Below are positions 15,379-49,542 of a stretch of DNA of 49,542 nucleotides, one piece after another (position 1 is the first letter of the stretch; each line of letters starts with the position of its first letter). The notes beneath the pieces are model-generated. The model made no database searches and was not told the origin of the DNA. It saw only the letters and a list, made by a program, of their open reading frames with translations. Both the position numbers and the translations under genes were made by a program. This DNA comes from a virus. The stretch is from positions 1 through 49,542 of IMG/VR virus record IMGVR_UViG_3300043395_002712; one strand, 5' to 3'.

Positions 15379-15407
15379 TTGCACGGCGTAGCAAGCCGTG
15401 CTATTAT
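15379..15407 (+). promoter_or_regulatory. Promoter with embedded palindrome, upstream of erf
   Basis: -35 TTGCAC (15379-15384), 17-bp spacer, -10 TATTAT (15402-15407). A 7-bp inverted repeat, GCACGGC (15381-15387) and GCCGTGC (15395-15401), fills the space between the two hexamers, the usual place for a repressor operator. The predicted start near 15414 leaves a leader of about 16 nt before ATG 15430, with no Shine-Dalgarno. Confidence 0.65.
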
Positions 15408-15429
15408 TCAACCGCCTACCTTTCCCTTT

Positions 15430-16092
15430 ATGGCACGATCTCCCTCTTCTCCACCGCCGTCCGATACGAGCACCATGCCGCGCAACATGGTGCAACCGGC
15501 GGGAACGGCTCAGCCGGCAAGACCGCAAGCTGCCCCTCTCCTGCAATCCATTGTTGCTGCCTCTCCTGAGTTCGCGGAGATTTTCAAGGACAGTAGCAAT
15601 GCCTTCCTCAACTCCCGCTACCTGAAGCTCCCTGGACTGCTCAAGATCATCAAGCCGCCGCTGCTTGAGCAGGGTGTCATTGTCTACACCCAGGTCGTTT
15701 TTGACTCAACGGCTTCTCAGTGGGTTGTGCGTACCACGCTCTCCAGTGTTAGCGAGCAAGAGGAAATCTATTCAGACTTCCCGATCCATGAGTCGCTTCT
15801 GGGCAATCTGCAAAAGATTGGTGGCGCCATCACCTATGGCACCCGTTACAATCTGTTTGCACTGCTTGCCATCTGCCCTCAAGATGAGGATGATGATGGC
15901 AACAGCGGCAGTAGTGGCGGCAGTGCTTACAACGCTCCCGCTACTGCCGGTGGACTGCCTGGCCTCCCCGGCATGGGTGCTCCGTCGCCGGCAGCCTGGC
16001 CAGCTCCGGGCCAAGAAGTGAAGTCGCCTTCCGCCTCGTTCTCTGGCACGCTCGCCAACCCCGTTCAACCTTCCCCCGTTCTCCCCCAGTGA
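15430..16092 (+). CDS. erf: ERF-family single-strand annealing protein, 220 aa
   Basis: Residues about 40-150 follow the ERF/Sak pattern: helical N-terminus (LLQSIVAASPEFAEIF), then SRYLKLPGLLKIIKPPLLEQ, a strand ITYGTRYNLFALLAICPQDED that carries the family's Y-x-x-R-Y-x-L element, and an acidic turn. The last 70 residues are a Gly/Pro/Ala-rich linker. ERF proteins anneal complementary single strands during recombination and genome circularisation. ATG 15430 is chosen because the upstream TTG (15379) lies in the promoter. It is followed by an SSB-like protein and an exonuclease, giving a complete annealing-type recombination set. Confidence 0.87.
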   Translation: MARSPSSPPPSDTSTMPRNMVQPAGTAQPARPQAAPLLQSIVAASPEFAEIFKDSSNAFLNSRYLKLPGLLKIIKPPLLEQGVIVYTQVVFDSTASQWVVRTTLSSVSEQEEIYSDFPIHESLLGNLQKIGGAITYGTRYNLFALLAICPQDEDDDGNSGSSGGSAYNAPATAGGLPGLPGMGAPSPAAWPAPGQEVKSPSASFSGTLANPVQPSPVLPQ

Positions 16093-16724
16093 CGCAATCT
16101 CAACCGCAACGCAAGCAGCGCCCCATTGACATTTCGCTTTGGACCAACAGGTACAAAAAGGAATCGAAGCACCCTGATTACAGGGGGACCGGCAAGGTCT
16201 CCTGGGATGTTGTTCAGGAGTTGTACGCTGCTTTTCAGTCTGGGAATTATCAGATTGACGACTACAGTCAGCAACCCTACGTTGAGCTTGATGTGACTCT
16301 GTGGGGTCACAACGAGAACATCGGGACCACCAAGCCTGTGCTTACCGGCAGCGCATCGAGCCTGGCCGACACCATGGCCCAGGCTGCCCGGCGTGCCGAA
16401 AGCAGGGCGGCCTGGGCCGGCTTCGGTGGTTCGCCCGAGCAGATCGTCGAGCAGCTCCTGGCCGAGCAGCAGGCGCAGCAGGCGGCTCTCCTGGCTCAGC
16501 AGCAGGCCGAGCAGCAGGCGGCATTCCTGGCGCACCAGCAGCAACAGCAGCAGGCGGCCCTCCTGGCAGCTCAGCAGGCCCAGGCCGCTCAGGCCGCTCA
16601 GGTGGTCGCCGCTCCGGTCCCCACGCCCGTCGCCCCTGCTCCCCTGCCGGCACCCCCGGCCGCCGCGCCCACGCCGATCGCCGGCACGATCCATGGCGGT
16701 GGCGCACTGCCCGCGAACTTCTGA
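16089..16724 (+). CDS. SSB-like protein with Gln/Ala-rich tail, 211 aa
   Basis: GTG start overlapping the erf stop. Residues about 8-85 resemble small phage OB-fold-type proteins (IDISLWTNRYKKESKHPDYR, then a strand YVELDVTLWGHNEN). The W-x-N-x-x-K-K-x-x-x-H-P-D-Y-x-G pattern is typical of SSB-like proteins next to annealing genes. Residues about 110-175 are a long Gln/Ala repeat tract (units like LLAEQQAQQAA) followed by Pro/Ala-rich sequence. I infer single-stranded DNA binding with a flexible partner-binding tail. The Gln/Ala tract is low complexity at DNA level too (repeats of CAGCAG and GCTCAG), so length may vary between relatives. Confidence 0.55.
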   Translation: MTQSQPQRKQRPIDISLWTNRYKKESKHPDYRGTGKVSWDVVQELYAAFQSGNYQIDDYSQQPYVELDVTLWGHNENIGTTKPVLTGSASSLADTMAQAARRAESRAAWAGFGGSPEQIVEQLLAEQQAQQAALLAQQQAEQQAAFLAHQQQQQQAALLAAQQAQAAQAAQVVAAPVPTPVAPAPLPAPPAAAPTPIAGTIHGGGALPANF

Positions 16725-17632
16725 TGCACAAACTTCGTTTGCTCCCCCCGCAAAGGGGGGTTTTTTTTAGCGGACAAGATCACAAGTATTTCTACGGCAG
16801 CGGGCCTGAAGCGATCGAAGTGCCATCGTCGTCGCATATCATCGCCCTGGGTGGCGGCAAGGACTTCGACAAGACCCCATGGCGCAGGTCTCTCTACAAG
16901 GCCGGAGTTAACGCCGAGGACGCGGAATACTACATGGATCGCGTCAGGGATATTCGCGCAGCTATTGGCACGCGCTTTCACTCGTTTGCCGAGCTAAGTC
17001 TGTGTTCACCAGACCCCGGAAGATCCCCCTACGAAGACCCCACAGGGATCCCGGAGAGGGAAGATGCTGAAGCACTGCTGATTCGCGATCAATGGCTAAA
17101 GCACGTCTTGCCGCGCATCGGCAAAGTCTATGTCATCGAAGATCCAATGATCCATCCAGGCGGCTGCTACGGTTTCACGCCGGACCTTATCGCTGAGGTC
17201 GATGGCATCCTGACCCAGTGTGACTGGAAGACGAATCAGGCGGAGAGTTATCGAGAGCGCTTTGGATGGTTGAGTACTTACTGCGACGATCTTAGGATGT
17301 ATCGCATTTGCGAGAAGGTTTTGCAAGCCAAGCTGGCGACCGGCGAATCCCGCGATGTTACGGCCCGCGTCCGCGAGGGCTGGCAGATGCAGCAGGGCAG
17401 CTATGCGTTTGGGGTTGAGGCTGTCCATGGGATGCGGGTCCAGCGAGGGATCAACTTCATGCTATCGGTCGATGGCGTGAAGGAGAAGCACTGGAACAGG
17501 CCCGACCTGGATCAGGGTTGGCTTCAGTTCGCCAATGGACTGCTGCTGCACCATCAGCGGGCCGTCATGGCCGGCGGCCACCCGGTCTTCCAAGCCGCTC
17601 TCAATGCTCTCTACCCGTTGATGCGCCACTGA
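16724..17632 (+). CDS. PD-(D/E)XK exonuclease, 302 aa
   Basis: The conserved opening has an H-x-Y/F-x-Y element (GQDHKYFYGS), then VPSSSHIIALGGG. The catalytic site is Glu-Val-Asp in TPDLIAEVDGIL plus Asp-Trp-Lys in CDWKTN (about residues 157-172), as in RecB-like and lambda-exo-like nucleases. It would degrade one strand so that the ERF protein can anneal the other. ATG 16724 shares a base with the upstream TGA. Oddly, a strong rho-independent terminator (16744-16768) lies inside codons 7-15, so transcription from upstream may end inside this gene. No better downstream start exists before the conserved HKYF segment. Confidence 0.82.
   Translation: MHKLRLLPPQRGVFFSGQDHKYFYGSGPEAIEVPSSSHIIALGGGKDFDKTPWRRSLYKAGVNAEDAEYYMDRVRDIRAAIGTRFHSFAELSLCSPDPGRSPYEDPTGIPEREDAEALLIRDQWLKHVLPRIGKVYVIEDPMIHPGGCYGFTPDLIAEVDGILTQCDWKTNQAESYRERFGWLSTYCDDLRMYRICEKVLQAKLATGESRDVTARVREGWQMQQGSYAFGVEAVHGMRVQRGINFMLSVDGVKEKHWNRPDLDQGWLQFANGLLLHHQRAVMAGGHPVFQAALNALYPLMRH
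16729..16768 (+). terminator. Rho-independent terminator inside the exonuclease 5' end
   Basis: Six C (16744-16749), a five-base loop GCAAA, six G (16755-16760), then eight T (16761-16768). A smaller hairpin CAAAC-TTC-GTTTG (16729-16741) directly precedes it. The sequence looks like an ideal intrinsic terminator, yet it encodes LLPPQRGVFF of the exonuclease. It could act as an attenuator that lowers exonuclease relative to ERF and the SSB-like protein. Confidence 0.8.
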
Positions 17633-17646
17633 TTGCGTGCTACACT
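17618..17646 (+). promoter_or_regulatory. Promoter upstream of the AbrB-like gene
   Basis: -35 TTGATG (17618-17623), exactly 17 bp, -10 TACACT (17641-17646). The predicted transcript start near 17653 gives a leader of about 17 nt to ATG 17670. The promoter overlaps the end of the exonuclease gene and lets the AbrB-like protein be expressed independently. Confidence 0.55.
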
Positions 17647-17669: not shown

Positions 17670-18293
17670 ATGCCCACCAAAGTCAAAGCTGCTCCCGCCC
17701 CCGTCGCCGACGAAGTGATGGAAGAGCCCGTCTACGAAGCCCCCGAGGAGGACGAAGGCGACTACGACGAAGACGAAGAGATCGACGGCGACACCGAGGA
17801 GGAGTCCGACGAAGGTTCCGACGACTCCGATGAGCCCGTCCGCAAGGTCGGCCAGGAGCTGCTCGACTTCGTTGAGGCCAAGACCGCCGAAGGCCGCACC
17901 CTCACCGACATCGCCTATCAGGCCGGGTACTACACCCTCACCAAGACCGGCTCTGAGCGCGTTCTGAAGGCACAGTTCAACCAGGCCCTCCTGGAGGCCA
18001 AGGGCTACGACCTGGGTGGGCGCTCCAAGAGCACCGGCACCGGCCGGGGTGGCTCGGGTCTCTCCCGTGCTCGGGTCAGCGGCTCCGGCCTGCTGCTCGT
18101 GTCCCAGCTCGCTGCCCGCGAAGTCGGTGCCATCCCTGGCGCCGTGTTCTCGATCGAGTACCCCACCGGCGATCTCATCGGCCCCGGCGCTCAGATCCTG
18201 CTCACCCTGACCGATGAGTTCCGCGAGGTCGTCCCCCGTGGTTCCCGGAGCGAGGAGGAGCCCGGCACACCGCTGCTCGATGAAGCAGCCTGA
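17670..18293 (+). CDS. Cyanobacterial AbrB-like DNA-binding protein with acidic N-terminal extension, 207 aa
   Basis: Residues 1-56 are a highly acidic, disordered extension (for example EEDEGDYDEDEEIDG). Residues about 60-112 match the N-terminal part of cyanobacterial AbrB-like regulators: ELLDFVEAKTAEGRTLTD, then AYQAGYYTLTKTGSERV and a helix FNQALLEAKGYDLGG. A Gly/Ser/Arg linker is followed by a strand-rich C-terminal part (RARVSGSGLLLVSQLA, GAIPGAVFSIEYPTGD), equivalent to the swapped-hairpin DNA-binding portion. In cyanobacteria these proteins act as global regulators of carbon/nitrogen genes and of phage-like islands. A phage copy may mimic or titrate the host regulator, or control phage promoters. 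The acidic extension could neutralise DNA binding or mimic DNA. A bidirectional terminator follows. Confidence 0.75.
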   Translation: MPTKVKAAPAPVADEVMEEPVYEAPEEDEGDYDEDEEIDGDTEEESDEGSDDSDEPVRKVGQELLDFVEAKTAEGRTLTDIAYQAGYYTLTKTGSERVLKAQFNQALLEAKGYDLGGRSKSTGTGRGGSGLSRARVSGSGLLLVSQLAAREVGAIPGAVFSIEYPTGDLIGPGAQILLTLTDEFREVVPRGSRSEEEPGTPLLDEAA

Positions 18294-18307: not shown

Positions 18308-18340
18308 AGAAAGCCCACGGTTCGCGCCGTGGGCTTTCTT
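18308..18340. terminator. Bidirectional rho-independent terminator
   Basis: A perfect 13-bp stem AGAAAGCCCACGG / CCGTGGGCTTTCT (18308-18320 and 18327-18339) with loop TTCGCG. It separates the convergent replication operon (plus) and structural/lysis operon (minus). T-rich sequence follows on both strands. Confidence 0.88.
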
Positions 18341-18346
18341 GTGTGC

Positions 18347-19057
18347 CTACTGCTCCTGGAAGACGCCGACGTAGACCTTGCCTTTCTGGGTGAGCGGTAG
18401 CACGAGATCACGCAGGGCGTCGTTGTGCATCCTGATGCACCCGTAGGTCGGCAGAAGCGGCTGCTTGGGCGCCCAGGCCCCGGGCCAGCCATTGCCGCTC
18501 CCGCCGCCGTGCAGCATGATCCCGGCCCTGCCGTTCGTCGCCTCCTGATTCTCCAGCTCCACCAGGTCGAACGAGTACCAGCCGTAAGCCTTGAGGGTGT
18601 CGTTGCCGGCGGGATGGGAGCCGACTTCCTCGTAGTCCTTGTGGATCTGGCCGATCACGTAGAGCCCTGGCGGGGTGTCGCTGTTGCGGGTGCGCCAGTC
18701 ACGATCTGAGCCCTGGCCCCGGGCCAATGCCGGCGCTCGCCACAGCAGCTTGCCGGTGTGGTCGTAAGCCTCGCAGTCCTGATCGCGGTCGTTCACGAGC
18801 AGGTAGGAGTCCCCTGGCTTCATCGGCGCCTTCATGCCGGGCCCAGTCATGCCGGCTTCCTCCTTGCCCCTCGGGTCGAGCCCGCCGGCAGGAATGAGAG
18901 GTTGCTTGGACGGCACCGCGCTGACCCAGATCGATCCCAGCTCGCCGCCGTCCTCCAGGCTGCCGGGCGGCAGATGCTGCTCAACAGCGGCCCAGAAAGC
19001 GACGTGATGCGAGAGGTCGAAGTTTGTGTTCTCGACGCAGGAGCGAAGGGTTCTCAT
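18347..19057 (-). CDS. YkuD (L,D-transpeptidase fold) domain protein, lysis candidate, 236 aa
   Basis: Residues about 80-235 match the YkuD domain: SYLLVNDRDQDCEAYDHTGK (strand pair), DTPPGLYVIGQI (the T/D-P-x-G-x-Y element), IMLHGGG with His183, and YGCIRMHNDA with Cys207, Arg209 and Asn212, the usual catalytic C-I-R-M-x-N. A Tyr replaces the common His before Gly-Cys. The family forms or cleaves 3-3 peptidoglycan cross-links. In a phage, just downstream of two small membrane proteins, it most likely weakens the cell wall for lysis. No signal peptide is seen, so it would need a holin or other export. The N-terminal 80 residues are unique. No other endolysin gene was recognised; the M15-like motif inside the tape measure is the only other cell-wall signature. 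Confidence 0.82.
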   Translation of the reverse strand: MRTLRSCVENTNFDLSHHVAFWAAVEQHLPPGSLEDGGELGSIWVSAVPSKQPLIPAGGLDPRGKEEAGMTGPGMKAPMKPGDSYLLVNDRDQDCEAYDHTGKLLWRAPALARGQGSDRDWRTRNSDTPPGLYVIGQIHKDYEEVGSHPAGNDTLKAYGWYSFDLVELENQEATNGRAGIMLHGGGSGNGWPGAWAPKQPLLPTYGCIRMHNDALRDLVLPLTQKGKVYVGVFQEQ

Positions 19058-29134: not shown

Positions 29135-29655
29135 AACGAAATGCCTCCGCTTGCAGGTAAGGGGCCAACCTGTGCAGCGGTCAATCTGCGCGTTGGTGCA
29201 GTGCCGGCTACAAAGTTGAGGGGGTTGGCCAGCTTCAGTGTAACAGGCGAGAAGTCATCCTCCTCCCCGGGGATGGCATCGGCGTACCCGAAGGAGTCGC
29301 AGATGCAAATGGTAGAACTCAGGAAGTTAAGCTCGTTCCATGTCGGGATGTCGTTTTCACTGGTTGGCGGCACGGCGGCGAGGAGTACCGTTGAAACCTT
29401 GATGAAGTGACGATCCTCGGACGCCTGCCATAGCATCGCCGTTGAAAGCATGTTCGCCGGTGCGATCAGCTCGAACTCGCCGCTCTCGGTTCCCTCAGTG
29501 GACACGTCGCCGGCAATGGAGAAGGGGCTGAACCTGTACTCCAGACCATCGAAGGTCCTCGTCTCACCGGGGAAGAAGGGCTGGTAGCGTTGAGGAACCG
29601 GGAAGGGGTTAGCGCTTGTGTCCAGGAACTCAATGTAGTGCGTTGGTGTCAGCAT
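29131..29655 (-). CDS. Minor tail protein, lambda L-like, 174 aa
   Basis: Beta-rich protein with a THYIEFLDTSANPFPV start, YRFSPFSIAGDVSTEG, and a Cys pair (STICICDSFGYAD). Downstream-of-tape-measure proteins of this size with Cys residues correspond to lambda L. It shares the last base of its stop with the tape-measure end region and overlaps the K-like gene by 4 bases. Confidence 0.6.
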   Translation of the reverse strand: MLTPTHYIEFLDTSANPFPVPQRYQPFFPGETRTFDGLEYRFSPFSIAGDVSTEGTESGEFELIAPANMLSTAMLWQASEDRHFIKVSTVLLAAVPPTSENDIPTWNELNFLSSTICICDSFGYADAIPGEEDDFSPVTLKLANPLNFVAGTAPTRRLTAAQVGPLPASGGISF

Positions 29656-32600
29656 CAGATCCCCACGTAGTCACGTACTTCCTTGTTGTTCCTCATGCCA
29701 GAAAGCGTCATTGCTTGAGCGCGCTTAAGTGTAGCAGCATTGGACTTGCGCATTTGATCCTCGGTGACGTAACGCTCGCCGCGTTCCTCCTTGACCGTGT
29801 AGTGCAACTTGATCGGTTCGTAGCTTTCGCCCCTGCCGCGCAGCTCCGCCGCTTTCTCCATGTCGCTCTTTGGCACGACTCGGCCAGTGACGCCGGGGAA
29901 GAAAAACTCGGGCTCGCCGCCGTCTCCCACGACATAGCCCTTGCCGGGCCTGGTGGTCCCGCCGTTGGCGAAGAAGCCGCCGAAGGGGATCGACTGGCCC
30001 AGGCCCTGCACGAGCGCGGGACCGCCGAAGAAGCTCCCGAGCACGCCCGCGCCGGCCCCGCCGCCGCCCCCAAGCATCCCACCCATGAGGCCCATGAGCT
30101 GGCGTTGCAGCAGTGCATTGAGTTGCTGTGCAGCGGAATCGGCGAAGCTGCGGGCGATGTTGTTGAGCATTTCCTTGCCCACATCTTCGATCTTCTTCGA
30201 GCTGCTCACAATGTCCACGAGGCCATTGGTGAGACTGCCGGAGATCGCGGTAGATACATCGACGATGTTCTTCTCCAGGTTGTCCCAAACAAGTCGCTGG
30301 TTCTCCAGCAGTGCTGCTCTATTGGCCAGTTCGCTTGCCTTGCTGGCATCGCCATCGAAGTCGCGCATTCCCTGCTCGAAGGCCCGAGCGCTTGGCCCGA
30401 TGAAGCCAGCACGAAGACCGGCGCCAACAAGAGAAGCGTCGCGTTGCAGTTCGTTGGTTTGCCTTCTGAACTCGTTTTGCTTGCGCAGTTCTTCTGTTTC
30501 GGCCGTTAGCGCAGCGAGCTTGTCCTTCTGCGCCTGTCCCGCCTCTTGATAGAGCGAGGATGCCTTGAGCAGCTCCAGGCCGGTCGCTTTCAGCTCGCCG
30601 CGCTCCAATGCGGCGGCCTCCACCCTGCTGAGCGTGAGCGCCTCTTGCAGTTGCAGGATCTCGGCGCGGGCGCGGTCCTGGTTTTGCAGCTGATTGCTGA
30701 GGTCAAGATTTTTGCGGCGCTGTTCCTCCTCTTTCTTTGCAATATCCAGCGCGAGACCGGCTTGCTTGTTGATCGATTCCGTTGCCTTGCTGAGTTCCTG
30801 GGGATTCGTGATCTGCTGACGGGCCTTGCTGAGGGCACCGGCGCGGTCCTTCTCGATCTGTGCAAGGCGAGCAGCGATCTCGGCCTCGATGTCGGCGACG
30901 GATGCGCCCTGCTCACTGAGGTCCAGGACCTGCCGACGTGCTTCGACCTGCCGGCGCAGCGTGTCGTACTGCTGCTGGAGCTGGGGGAGCTGGTTGCTTT
31001 GCAGGATCTGCTCGATCTGCCCCAGCTCGACACCCTTCTCGCGCAACCTGATCTGCTCCTCCAGGATCCGCTGGGCCTCCCGCTCTCCGCCGGCCAGGGT
31101 GCGGCCAGCAGCCATCCGGGCCGCACTGAGGGGAGCGGCCGAGGGCGTGGCGCCCAGGGGAGTCGGGCGGAAGGTGGGGGCGGGAACGCCGCTGACCTGG
31201 CCGGCGGCACGGCCCTGGATGTTTCCGCCTCCAAGGTGCGCGGCGACCAGGGCTCGAACGCGTCTCGCCAGGGCGTCTTCCTTGCCCATCGGAACCTGCG
31301 CCGCCGGTATGTCCACGGCCTGGCCGCTGTAGTGATAGCTCCCAGGGGCGTGACGGCCGCCATCCGTGGAGCCAATGGCAATGCCATTCCTGCGCAGCAT
31401 GGAGATAACATCATCCCTTATCTTTCTGCTTGCGAAGGCAATGTGCTCGTGATAATTGGATCCGCCATGGTCAGCCCTGTAACCCGAGGAGCTTCTGTCG
31501 CCCGTGAGGTATTCAAGAACGCCAGGTACGCCCATCAGTGTGTTGGGAGCGGCTCCCGTCGGCAGCGCCCTGCCAGTGCGCCCTGGCGCCGCAGGAGCCC
31601 CGGGACCGGCGCCCACCTCGGGCAGCGCCGCCGACTGGCGCGATAGCTCAGCAGCCTCCCTCGTGCGTTGCAAAACATAGTCTGCAACCTGCATCTTGTA
31701 GTCTTCGACCGAGCGCGTGTACGCGAGTTTGCGGCGTTCAATATCGTCAATCTCACGCGCATTTGCACGTTTGTAGTCCTCGGCGTCGCGGCCGAGTTTC
31801 ACCATGGAAAGCTCAAGCCTCTTGCGCGACTGCTCAATGTCGGCCTCGCCTTCCTTGCGCGTCCGCATCACTTCGCGGACATTGCTGAGCAGTTGCTGCT
31901 CGAACCCTACGGCACCAGAGAACGCCTGCCGCAGTCCAAGATCGCCCCGCTCGATGCGGTTCTGCGCCGCGCCCCTGGCGTTCTCGATCTGCTTCTCGGC
32001 CGCCTGCTGGCGCAGGTCAAAGATTTCGCGCTCTTTCTTGTAAGCGTAATCCGCAATATCCCTGTTGATGTCAGCGCCATCACGCTGAAGATCGTACGCC
32101 TGCCGTTGCAGCTTGAACGCTTCACGATATGCCGACTTGACTTGATCCGCCAGCCTTTGCGACTCCTGGATTCGCGTCGACTGTTCGGCAAAGGCCTCCT
32201 GCGGCGAGAGCGGAACGCGGCCAGGGGCCGAGGCAATCGCAGCTTTTGCCTTTTTGCCGGATGGGGTCAGCGAAAATAGGGCGCCAATAGCATCGGTGAT
32301 TGGCATTCTGTTCTTGCCCGCGCCACCAACGCTGTTGAGAAGCGTGACAAGATCATTCAGTACAACCGTAAAACCGATGACGCCAGGAATCACAAGTCGC
32401 TGAAGATTGCCGGCAAGAATCGACGAGGAGTCTTGCAGCTTTTTCTGCTCAGCATTGAGAGCATTAAGCTCCTGAACTGCTCCAGTCCCGAGCCGCTTTT
32501 CAACCTCTTTCAGGACAAGAGTTTGCGCATCGTAGGCGCGGCCGACTGACTTCAGTTGCTCAACCTGAAACCTCAGAGTATCGCCAACCTCGAATCCGGC

Positions 32601-34427
32601 CTTCTCCAGCGCCGTGATGGCATCGTTTGGATCCTTGAACGATCCGGCAAGATTCTTCAGGTTCTGCGATGTGGTATCGACCACCCCGCCAAGCGCCGTG
32701 CCGATCAGGGACAGGCCGAAGCCGAAGGAGCCCCCGAGCAGACCCCCGCCCAGGCCGCCCAGGCCGCCGCCGATCGATGCAGCGGCACCCTGGCCGAACA
32801 GCAGTGGGAAGGCGCCACCCACGAGGCCCTGGCTGATGGCGTCGCGGCGGCTGCCCTGGAACAGCCGGGAGTTCTGGCGCTGGCGCTCGGCCTCCCTCTG
32901 GGCCCTGAGGGCCTCGCGCTGCTGGCGCTGCGCCTGGCGCTCCTGCTCGCGGTTGTAGGCCGGGGAGTCCACCATGAACCGCGTCCCGCCGATCGGGGAG
33001 CGGGGGCCGGCAGTGCGAGACCTGGCCAGCTCCTCTGCTGCCCGGCGCTCCTGCTCGCGTCGCTGTGCAAGCAGGTCAACGGGAGCAACGCCGCCCGGGG
33101 TGCCCGCCACGCGCTCGGCAAGCATGGCGCTGCTTGGCAGGGCGCGGCGATTGGTTCTCTGCCAATCCGCCATGTCCGCCAGTGCTCGTTGCCAGCTCTG
33201 GCGGGTGTTCAGGCCACGGGCCGCCCTGCCGGCGGCTCCGGTGGCCTGGATGTCCGCCATGTCCGCCAGTGCTCGTTGCCAGCTCTGGCGGGTGTTCAGG
33301 CCACGGGCCGCCCTGCCGGCGGCTCCGGTGGCCTGGATGTCCGCCATGTCCGCCAGTGCTCGTTGCCAGCTCTGGCGGGTGTTCAGGCCACGGGCCGCCC
33401 TGCCGGCGGCTCCGGTGGCCTGGATGTCCGCCATGCCAGCCAGTGCCTGCTGCCAGCTCTGGCGGACATTGAGATTCCTGACCCCAGCCCTTTGCCGACC
33501 GGAAAGCTCTCTCGCGGCGCTATCAAGCTCCCGCGTATATCGCGCAATGGCGGCATTCATGCGCCGCGTTAGATCCTTGGATCCGGCGGTATCCCCGCGC
33601 CTACTGGCCGCAATTACTCTTTCGGTTTGCGACCTGAGCCCCCTAATCTTTGCGTCGTCAACACCAGGACGTGCGGCCAGTTCATCGATTCGCTCCTGAG
33701 CGCGTCTTGCAGACTCGAAGGCAATAGACCGGCCAGAGCGCAACCTATTGCGCTCATTCTGCTCTCTCAGCAATCCGGCCTGCTCGGTGCCGAGCCGCTG
33801 CATAAGGGCCGGGTTCCGGGCCGCCAGAGCGAGATCAAATGCCGCCCTGGTATTGTGAGCTTGCTGTTGAAGCGCCGGGGGAAGTTCAGCGCCTCCACCT
33901 CCCCTGGCAAACTCGCGCTGACGACCCCGGAACAGATTGGTAAGGTAATTTTCGCGGCTCTCGCGTCCGATGCGACGCATAACCTCGTCAAGATTTGCCC
34001 TGCCTTCCTCTATGCCAGGGGTTGTCTCCCCGACTATGCGACTGGCCCTGGCAAGGCGAGCCGCATATCTTCTGCGTTGCTGATTAAGCCTTTGTACTTC
34101 CCTCGCTTCCTGCTGGAGTCCGATTTCGGAAATGCGGAGATTTGCCTCAGCCCTCCTGCGTGCCGGCAGGTCAGCCCCCGCGAATCTTCCTCCCTCTCCC
34201 CGAACTCTTGCGCGCCTGGCCTCGGCGAGATCCCTGCGAGCCTGTGCGACGCTGCGACCAGCCGCCTCAAGACGCTTAGAGGCAGCTGGGGCTGCCTGCG
34301 TCAGGCTTTCGGACTCTCTGTCAATAGCTCTCATAAGAGAGAGCGTGTTTTCAAGGCGTCTTTCGAGCCGCCCTATATCCTCGAACCCTCTTACGCCAAC
34401 GCGGATTAACCCTTGGTAGTCGTTCAC
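29655..34427 (-). CDS. Tape measure protein with internal repeats and an M15-like peptidase motif, 1590 aa
   Basis: The longest gene (GTG start 34427), in the expected position after the chaperones. The N-terminal 430 residues are helical and include a 29-residue unit (RQSWQRALADMADIQATG) repeated almost identically three times plus a diverged copy. Hydrophobic Gly-rich segments lie near residues 525-585. Residues about 985-1060 carry HGGSNYHEHIAFAS then GRHAPGSYHYSGQAVDIPAA. The latter has the S-x-H-x-x-G-x-A-x-D signature of M15-type zinc peptidases, preceded rather than followed by a His pair. The C-terminus has a Gly-rich stretch and DGGEPEFFFPGVTG. The protein sets tail length and probably locally opens peptidoglycan on entry. 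Confidence 0.9.
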   Translation of the reverse strand: MNDYQGLIRVGVRGFEDIGRLERRLENTLSLMRAIDRESESLTQAAPAASKRLEAAGRSVAQARRDLAEARRARVRGEGGRFAGADLPARRRAEANLRISEIGLQQEAREVQRLNQQRRRYAARLARASRIVGETTPGIEEGRANLDEVMRRIGRESRENYLTNLFRGRQREFARGGGGAELPPALQQQAHNTRAAFDLALAARNPALMQRLGTEQAGLLREQNERNRLRSGRSIAFESARRAQERIDELAARPGVDDAKIRGLRSQTERVIAASRRGDTAGSKDLTRRMNAAIARYTRELDSAARELSGRQRAGVRNLNVRQSWQQALAGMADIQATGAAGRAARGLNTRQSWQRALADMADIQATGAAGRAARGLNTRQSWQRALADMADIQATGAAGRAARGLNTRQSWQRALADMADWQRTNRRALPSSAMLAERVAGTPGGVAPVDLLAQRREQERRAAEELARSRTAGPRSPIGGTRFMVDSPAYNREQERQAQRQQREALRAQREAERQRQNSRLFQGSRRDAISQGLVGGAFPLLFGQGAAASIGGGLGGLGGGLLGGSFGFGLSLIGTALGGVVDTTSQNLKNLAGSFKDPNDAITALEKAGFEVGDTLRFQVEQLKSVGRAYDAQTLVLKEVEKRLGTGAVQELNALNAEQKKLQDSSSILAGNLQRLVIPGVIGFTVVLNDLVTLLNSVGGAGKNRMPITDAIGALFSLTPSGKKAKAAIASAPGRVPLSPQEAFAEQSTRIQESQRLADQVKSAYREAFKLQRQAYDLQRDGADINRDIADYAYKKEREIFDLRQQAAEKQIENARGAAQNRIERGDLGLRQAFSGAVGFEQQLLSNVREVMRTRKEGEADIEQSRKRLELSMVKLGRDAEDYKRANAREIDDIERRKLAYTRSVEDYKMQVADYVLQRTREAAELSRQSAALPEVGAGPGAPAAPGRTGRALPTGAAPNTLMGVPGVLEYLTGDRSSSGYRADHGGSNYHEHIAFASRKIRDDVISMLRRNGIAIGSTDGGRHAPGSYHYSGQAVDIPAAQVPMGKEDALARRVRALVAAHLGGGNIQGRAAGQVSGVPAPTFRPTPLGATPSAAPLSAARMAAGRTLAGGEREAQRILEEQIRLREKGVELGQIEQILQSNQLPQLQQQYDTLRRQVEARRQVLDLSEQGASVADIEAEIAARLAQIEKDRAGALSKARQQITNPQELSKATESINKQAGLALDIAKKEEEQRRKNLDLSNQLQNQDRARAEILQLQEALTLSRVEAAALERGELKATGLELLKASSLYQEAGQAQKDKLAALTAETEELRKQNEFRRQTNELQRDASLVGAGLRAGFIGPSARAFEQGMRDFDGDASKASELANRAALLENQRLVWDNLEKNIVDVSTAISGSLTNGLVDIVSSSKKIEDVGKEMLNNIARSFADSAAQQLNALLQRQLMGLMGGMLGGGGGAGAGVLGSFFGGPALVQGLGQSIPFGGFFANGGTTRPGKGYVVGDGGEPEFFFPGVTGRVVPKSDMEKAAELRGRGESYEPIKLHYTVKEERGERYVTEDQMRKSNAATLKRAQAMTLSGMRNNKEVRDYVGI
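33170..33475 (-). repeat. 87-bp tandem repeat in the tape measure gene
   Basis: Three nearly identical 87-bp units followed by a diverged fourth copy, each coding 29 residues. The in-frame period means copy number can change without breaking the gene. Boundaries are accurate to a few bases. Confidence 0.85.
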
Positions 34428-47665: not shown

Positions 47666-48196
47666 TCAGTCCCGGGGGAAGTCGTACCTGATCCGCGGCC
47701 GGCACTTAAGATCGCTGATTAGCCTGTAGGGCTCCTCGCAATCCCTCGCCAGTTGTGCAAGTTTTTCAATCGCTCCCACAACCTCCTCAATGGTAGGAAT
47801 GGGCTCAGGATCACGAACCTTGCAAAGCTCCGTGATGTATCCGTCCCTTACATTCGCCAGCACCACAAACGTCTCAACGCTGCCACGACTGCGCCCAGCG
47901 TCTCCAGACAGCTGAAAATCCCCCGAAAGATGTACCGTTACCCGATTATTTGGATTCATCCCACTACCAAGGTAGCAGCGAAAGCAAGGCCCAGCGTGCA
48001 ACGCTGAATCGTATTTCTTCCATTCCTTGCTAAAGCTGCCATCTGCCAAAATAATCTTCTTGTTCTCGTTGAAGAAAACTTCCAGGATGGGAGCATAAAA
48101 GTCGATTGCTTCTTGCCGCAGCTGATTAAGCTCAGCCCGGCAAGCAAGCTCAGCCTTAAGATCCTGGATTTGTGCAGCGGAAATAGTGAGAGTCAT
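47666..48196 (-). CDS. Hypothetical protein, 176 aa
   Basis: The N-terminal helix (LKAELACRAELNQLRQEAID) is followed by VFFNENKKIILADGSFSKEW and a beta-rich middle (NRVTVHLSGDFQLSGDAGRS), then IPTIEEVVGAIEKLAQLARD. No family was recognised. The codons for SALHAGPCFRC contain 22 bases identical to the terminator/promoter repeat found at 48675 and 49037, which is unusual for coding DNA. Confidence 0.62.
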   Translation of the reverse strand: MTLTISAAQIQDLKAELACRAELNQLRQEAIDFYAPILEVFFNENKKIILADGSFSKEWKKYDSALHAGPCFRCYLGSGMNPNNRVTVHLSGDFQLSGDAGRSRGSVETFVVLANVRDGYITELCKVRDPEPIPTIEEVVGAIEKLAQLARDCEEPYRLISDLKCRPRIRYDFPRD

Positions 48197-49331: not shown

Positions 49332-49542
49332 GGCTGAGCCTTCCCCGCTTCCGCCAGAATGTCCCCCGCTGCCTTGATGCTTGCGAATGCAAGTAATTGC
49401 ATTTTGAAGTGCATCTTTGCCATGGGCTCCGAGACTTCCCCACCCTGCAAGCATTCATTCACGCAAAGCACAAAGCGCATTGCTTCAGTCTCTGACAGAT
49501 TGCCGGCAGCGGCAATCATCCCAAGACGTATCATACTCTCAA
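49328..49542 (-). CDS. Hypothetical protein, C-terminal part of the gene split by the window ends
   Basis: This is the same gene as 1-191. In the window alone it looks like a 68-residue protein starting at Met 49534, but joining the ends adds 24 residues with a coupled start. The sequence is helical (FVLCVNECLQGG, AFASIKAAGDILAEAGK). Unknown function. Confidence 0.7.
   Translation of the reverse strand, partial: ESMIRLGMIAAAGNLSETEAMRFVLCVNECLQGGEVSEPMAKMHFKMQLLAFASIKAAGDILAEAGKAQP
49416..49542. repeat. Terminal direct repeat, right copy
   Basis: Exact copy of bases 1-127. Joining the two copies restores an open reading frame on the minus strand (start at 191, stop at 49328), which supports a circular or circularly permuted genome. 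Confidence 0.93.

Follow-up and report, generated by a model that had tools for sequence, protein, structure and literature searches.

The closest described relatives of the protein analysed here are cyAbrB1 and cyAbrB2 of cyanobacteria (PF14250; Synechocystis Sll0359/Sll0822). A recent account (PMC11368403) describes cyAbrB2 as an H-NS-like nucleoid protein of cyanobacteria that coats extended AT-rich regions, among them 80 of 125 insertion sequences, and represses the genes that lie there. The same work likens it to H-NS and Lsr2, proposes a role in defence against foreign DNA and reports a physical interaction between cyAbrB1 and cyAbrB2 (PMC11368403). Mobile elements of other bacteria bear altered homologues of such silencers: H-NST antagonises H-NS, most likely via heterodimers with altered DNA binding (PMC7074111), and Lsr2 regulators are widespread on actinophages (PMC8612146). 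The Lsr2 of actinophages, CgpS and H-NST are, like the protein described below, altered copies of a host nucleoid silencer on a mobile element (PMC7074111, PMC8612146), but they come from protein families unrelated to cyAbrB. H-NST lacks the DNA-binding part, whereas the phage protein keeps both halves of its family and has gained an acidic tail. A jumbo-phage review mentions AbrB domains in a few phages (PMC7824862), and a search of titles and abstract openings in the open full-text literature, outside which most subscription papers lie, found no report of a phage-encoded cyAbrB.

We analysed a stretch of viral DNA of 49,542 nucleotides (the window; IMG/VR record IMGVR_UViG_3300043395_002712) and focused on one gene with its surroundings:

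15379..16092, + strand: gene for an Erf-type single-strand annealing protein (PF04404, phrog_2324).
16724..17632, + strand: exonuclease gene (phrog_298), the upstream neighbour in every lineage member.
17633..17646, + strand: extended -10-like promoter motif TTGCGTGCTACACT, in the 37-bp gap past the exonuclease stop, present in 7 of 7 contigs.
17670..18293, + strand: the acidic-tailed cyAbrB-family gene, encoding 207 aa (Pfam match, six-frame search, iterated profile).
17670..17840, + strand: residues 1-57, with MPTK conserved at the start and then an acidic tail for which no secondary structure is predicted.
17841..18005, + strand: residues 58-112, helical N-terminal cyAbrB half (helices 62-73 and 78-84, hairpin 88-98, helix 100-111).
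18066..18221, + strand: residues 133-184, AbrB-like half (strands 134-136 and 142-144, helix 146-151, strands 158-163 and 176-184).
18255..18281, + strand: C-terminal tip EEPGTPLLD, residues 196-204, which reads E[EQ]P[GS]TPLLD in all orthologues.
18309..18338, + strand: terminator-like hairpin GAAAGCCCACGG-TTCGCG-CCGTGGGCTTTC followed by TTGTGTG, between convergent genes.
18347..19057, - strand: convergent downstream gene with a YkuD L,D-transpeptidase domain (PF03734).

Judged from its sequence, the gene encodes a strongly diverged phage member of the cyAbrB family and probably makes up a separate transcription unit that closes a recombination gene block. The open reading frame runs on the plus strand from an ATG at 17670 to a TGA ending at 18293. 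An earlier reading of the letters alone (the original prediction) had called its product a cyanobacterial AbrB-type regulator, and an AbrB-profile search had been set beforehand as the test of that call. The search returned a match: PF14250 (AbrB-like) aligns with residues 102-163 at 27.8 bits (E 2.8e-6; curated cut-off 25), and a six-frame search of the record found this gene as the single PF14250 place (29.9 bits). The four orthologues scanned scored 31.3, 26.1, 25.0 and 24.6 bits, the last (L167) below the cut-off, so lineage scores lie close to it (25.0-31.3 bits in four members and 24.6 in one). Started from residues 55-190, the core, an iterated profile collected cyanobacterial cyAbrB proteins and viral members and matched the window protein at 3.1e-24, grouping it with cyAbrB and bearing out the family call. 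Alignments place a helical N-terminal half with the pattern G-Y-x-x-x-x-K-x-G ... F-x-x-A-L-L-x-A-K-G ahead of the AbrB half; the core sequence singled out earlier is present as G86-G94 and N104-L115, and L64, G86, F103, A106, L108, A110 and G112 are invariant in 37 aligned sequences. The protein had no match in PHROGs. On these alignments and profiles, membership of the cyAbrB family is very probable. Both halves, in the same order, are shared with cyAbrB1 and cyAbrB2, from which the phage protein differs in its acidic N-terminal tail, its conserved C-terminal tip, its fewer basic residues and its very long branch.

We also predicted the structure. An AlphaFold2 model built with 37 aligned family members has a mean pLDDT of 76.5: residues 62-111 are modelled confidently as helix, helix, hairpin and helix (pLDDT 94-97 across most of the helical half), the tail is without secondary structure, and residues 134-184 form a strand-strand-helix-strand-strand arrangement in what is a model of the monomer only. 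When a cellular cyAbrB member was modelled from that set, its elements came in the same order. In Foldseek, AbrB, SpoVT, C68 and histone-like (5itj/5itm) chains recur in the top rows for the phage protein, none significantly; the cellular model has AbrB or SpoVT chains in each of its top seven rows, with a probability of up to 0.98 at E about 0.1. In a second structure comparison AbrB and SpoVT lead with weak Z scores of 3.5 and 3.4 over 43 residues at 2.4 A, and the N-terminal half finds assorted DNA-binding, mainly helix-turn-helix proteins, also weakly (Z about 3 or lower). A solved-structure search with the single window protein found nothing relevant, and a profile search matched PHS018 (2glw), which we take to be an AbrB-type barrel, at 3.8e-5; a profile comparison against an alignment that includes the orthologues is circular and was disregarded. 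In BFVD the best match (4.2e-7) comes from the uncultured phage MedDCM-OCT-S39-C11 and is annotated as 'AbrB family transcriptional regulator', a phage-borne protein of the same family with 118 aa, known here as a structure match only. The second is a 52-aa protein of Prochlorococcus phage P-TIM68 that corresponds to the N-terminal half alone (rmsd 0.8). Thus the C-terminal half does align with AbrB and SpoVT structures, at weak scores, and the swapped hairpin of the original prediction stands as a prediction only. The predicted strand-strand-helix-strand-strand order is that of the AbrB/SpoVT/MazE looped-hinge superfamily (Bacillus AbrB, SpoVT, PHS018 2glw); in Bacillus AbrB, however, the DNA-recognition domain is N-terminal, whereas in the phage protein the corresponding, low-scoring part is C-terminal, behind the helical half.

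We found an acidic-tailed orthologue in eight IMG/VR contigs, counting the window and its identical twin (contig 3300049846_000933), with six distinct proteins among them. Single-sequence pattern scans for orthologues returned the twin only. A search with the phage's DUF3987 protein yielded three relatives at 68-73% identity, each with an orthologue in the same order: Erf, a second conserved gene, exonuclease, acidic-tailed cyAbrB. A scan with the resulting four-orthologue alignment then returned the twin and six further contigs, namely the three DUF3987 relatives and three new ones. Pattern scans detect only fits to short patterns, which makes every count of viral contigs a minimum and tilts it towards the query. 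The six contigs beyond the identical twin rule out a singular oddity. All eight contigs have the exonuclease just upstream, the promoter-like motif and the same C-terminal tip. Among the six non-identical relatives, the exonuclease adjoins upstream in all six, an Erf gene lies upstream in five (the L171 stretch ends before the Erf position) and the convergent YkuD gene is visible in five. The YkuD-type L,D-transpeptidase gene is itself of note in a phage and is possibly a cell-wall enzyme for lysis.

The original prediction had given the N-terminal tail as a 56-residue acidic extension; it is real, spans 57 residues and holds 26 D/E and 2 K/R. The richest 57-residue stretch in the protein has 29 D/E, and the runner-up among 61 ORFs chosen by hand across the window has 19, the mean D+E fraction in that set being 0.118. 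The MPTK start occurs in all seven aligned contigs, and the tails of these contigs are 50-75 residues long with 24-46% D/E. Tail strength varies among the five other distinct tail-bearing proteins and is lowest in L165 and L169, at 24% D/E. In pairs that are not near-identical, and leaving out the duplicate L171, the tail past its start is 15-49% identical and the remainder, the core, 56-74%. The letters of the tail thus diverge while its acidic character and the core persist, which fits selection on charge and not on sequence. An acidic N-terminal tail of this type was found in none of the 118 other distinct family sequences listed (window copies L001, L002, L004 and L085 set aside). In the family of cyanobacterial genome G005, 148 of 151 genomes match the cyAbrB family (A2 profile), and among the matches listed the profile start is at least 27 and mostly 50-61, at or near the tail end.

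The shift in charge is not confined to the tail. The median net charge of the whole protein is -15 (-26 to -8) in the six lineage proteins, whereas the 79 cellular proteins have a median of +1 and the 78 other viral ones a median of +4, and the 55 residues past the A-K-G motif hold a median of 5.5 K/R in the lineage, 8 in cellular and 10 in other viral proteins; these charge counts leave out the duplicate L171, L003, L018 and one short second match in L059. Much of the family's positive charge is gone from the AbrB half of the lineage. By alignment, the basic family positions K92, R97, R126 and R135 are kept, and R150 is invariant within the lineage. At the other end of the protein, only two positions of the tip E[EQ]P[GS]TPLLD vary among orthologues and few residues follow it. 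The tip probably docks a partner protein.

We then considered how the gene is expressed. The noncoding, extended -10-like motif TTRCGTGNTAYNNT between the exonuclease stop and the ATG is kept in all seven non-identical contigs, with a single exact copy in the window; elsewhere in the window the motif was found no more often than chance allows. A candidate -35 half, TTGATG, sits within the end of the exonuclease gene, and its conservation proves nothing because it lies in coding sequence. A consensus promoter scanner reported no promoter for the cyAbrB-family gene. Of the original claim of an own promoter there remains, therefore, a conserved promoter-like motif (7 of 7 contigs) that the scanner does not call. 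The claim of an own terminator is matched by a terminator-like structure: the 3' hairpin is 13 bp long and nearly perfect, and its 61-nt stretch folds at -32.9 kcal/mol (z -5.5). A strong hairpin, defined as -20 kcal/mol or better with at least 4 T in the next 8 positions, follows the gene in six of the seven non-identical contigs, the exception being L169 (weak, at -10). One intergenic repeat, inspected as a set of operator boxes, was rejected. This palindrome, CAGCGTGCAACGCTGA, lies at 47992, 48680 and 49042 and, read on the minus strand, looks like a hairpin terminator reused between small genes.

Phages with a cyAbrB gene are not rare as such. At least 79 IMG/VR contigs matched in our scan; one is the twin, which leaves at least 78 other viral contigs with a tail-less cyAbrB. 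In 66 of 78 (within L086-L163) the gene lies between the terminase large subunit and portal genes, within set distances, with neighbours named via PHROGs from representatives; in the remainder there is a terminase alone (4), a portal alone (1) or neither (7). The 66 contigs hold 31 distinct cyAbrB sequences, and the fixed place suggests that the gene's function is linked to packaging or to late genes. These tail-less proteins share family and phage carriage with the window protein, but they are mostly 105-115 aa, basic, encoded in a packaging cassette and placed elsewhere in the tree. With these contigs, and one annotated AbrB family protein already in BFVD, a 'first cyAbrB in a phage' can be dismissed. 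Two points were beyond a reading of the letters alone: how common tail-less cyAbrB is in other viral contigs, and that the acidic tail is conserved throughout this phage lineage. Among the 40 rows of a maximum-likelihood tree, those of the window lineage form one side of a branch supported 100/100 and very long, with 4.15 and 2.05 changes per column flanking the drawn root, whereas the other viral rows are scattered among cellular ones and force at least 3 changes. It therefore appears that phages took up the gene on several occasions, the window lineage being the most remodelled. The novelty is a deep, acidic-tailed branch of cyAbrB.

The family searches turned up several further arrangements. 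Cyanophages P-TIM68 (L188:2501-2659) and B23 (L003:2959-3387) encode the N-terminal cyAbrB half only, annotated as hypothetical, which in B23 is followed by a different C-terminal half. One cyanobacterial genome encodes a valyl-tRNA synthetase with an N-terminal cyAbrB module (L185:2411-5509; PF14250 at residues 44-105), directly 3' of a free-standing cyAbrB gene; similar frames of 1026-1032 aa occur in three other genomes, and the Pfam scan covered L185 alone. Three picocyanobacterial genomes (G001, G004 and G005) have 7-13 PF14250 places each, against the two usually discussed in Synechocystis.

What might an acidic cyAbrB do in a phage? The two mechanisms of the original prediction, a decoy and a switch protein of the phage's own, still appear to be the leading ones on sequence grounds. 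We lean, without firm commitment, towards a counter-silencer that joins or competes with the host's cyAbrB while its tail keeps it from binding DNA. The folded part would retain pairing with cyAbrB subunits or with cyAbrB target DNA, and the disordered acidic tail would hold a mixed complex off DNA or act as a DNA mimic. Incoming phage DNA would thereby escape being silenced by the host's cyAbrB, much as truncated or modified H-NS homologues lift silencing in other bacteria. Against the published background of silencing, an acidic cyAbrB with its fold retained is most simply an antagonist, and in favour of this stand the family membership, the tails with 24-46% D/E in 7 of 7 contigs, the charge shift and the own promoter-like motif and terminator. 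Several points weigh on the other side. DNA binding may be intact, since K92, R97, R126 and R135 are kept together with the lineage-conserved R150; acidic tails occur also on DNA-binding proteins; the tail is uneven in strength, as L165 and L169 illustrate; and the window, at 59% G+C, is not an obvious target for an AT-seeking silencer. The fuller claim, that a cyanophage lineage turned a host nucleoid silencer into a dedicated antagonist with an acidic-tailed cyAbrB fold and its own promoter, we consider rather unlikely as it stands. If true, no counter-silencing system would have been described in cyanobacteria before this one, and cyAbrB would have to be seen as a defence against foreign DNA that phages need to get past. 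If phages do undo cyAbrB through altered copies, the proposal that cyAbrB2 defends against foreign DNA becomes directly testable. The fixed-place, tail-less cyAbrB of many uncultured viral contigs suggests that cyanophages commonly manipulate this regulator, a practice that has hardly been studied.

Almost as likely as a counter-silencer is a DNA-binding regulator or nucleoid protein of the phage's own. Here the AbrB half would bind phage or host DNA, the tail would tune affinity, cooperativity or solubility, and the protein would control a switch between sets of phage genes, like phage-borne Lsr2 or CgpS. Consistent with such a role, both family halves are kept, the core is well conserved in the lineage (56-74%), and the promoter-like motif and terminator suggest separate control. 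The basic, tail-less cyAbrB proteins at their fixed place in other phages are most easily seen as DNA binders, and phage-borne Lsr2 regulators offer a precedent that is widespread in actinophages (PMC8612146). However, the charge of the AbrB half is lowered and the whole protein is strongly acidic, and no repeated operator-like box could be tied to the protein, the promoter motif having one exact match in the window. Under the antagonist and regulator readings alike, conservation of the C-terminal tip points to a partner protein.

We regard an accessory factor of recombination as improbable. The AbrB core would hold DNA or an oligomer, and the tail and tip would recruit Erf or the exonuclease, much as the acidic tip of SSB recruits its partners. 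Erf, the second conserved gene and the exonuclease do precede the gene wherever sequence reaches, and the tip is nearly invariant in all orthologues. Nonetheless, the gene follows a 37-bp gap and a promoter-like motif of its own and need not belong to the recombination operon; the known role of the cyAbrB family is transcriptional; and other phages have cyAbrB between their terminase and portal genes, apart from recombination genes. Functionless drift of a degenerate, host-acquired gene would fit the very long branch (4.15 and 2.05 changes per column beside the drawn root) and the weak PF14250 scores (24.6 against a cut-off of 25 in L167), but frame, core, tip, promoter-like motif and position are kept in six distinct orthologues at 56-74% core identity between pairs that are not near-identical, and this reading, already disfavoured, is very hard to credit.

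The original prediction had treated the gene as the best evidence for a cyanobacterial host. In our scans PF14250 matches were mostly cyanobacterial: among 14 control genomes the one positive is the cyanobacterium Synechococcus elongatus, and 79 of the best 80 loci in a genome scan have cyanobacterial titles, the other being a MAG labelled Bifidobacterium breve. Five cyanobacterial genomes picked from those loci have 2-13 PF14250 places each. From this distribution a cyanobacterial host is likely. Kinship with phage S-2L was considered, since the terminase has its best phage match there (37%), and rejected, as a search of S-2L at E up to 10 found no member of the family; Vibrio phage terminases are the next matches, at the same identity, so the terminase says little about the host. 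An apparent kinship with actinophages was likewise set aside, resting as it does on about 140-220 bp within a tail gene only. In 386 cyanobacterial genomes no close relative of the phage's DUF3987 protein was found: the 27 matches obtained were weak, and the six best of them reached 23-34% identity. Together with the absence from the record of a PF00589 integrase, the one integrase family searched, this gives no sign of lysogeny. No tRNA genes were found, and no PLSDB plasmid matched. Identical direct terminal repeats of 127 bp lie at positions 1-127 and 49416-49542 of the window, which is therefore probably a complete genome of about 49.4 kb. Within it, a 126-nt repeat occurs three times, at a spacing of 87 nt, at 33166-33465, inside a 1590-aa ORF (29655-34427).
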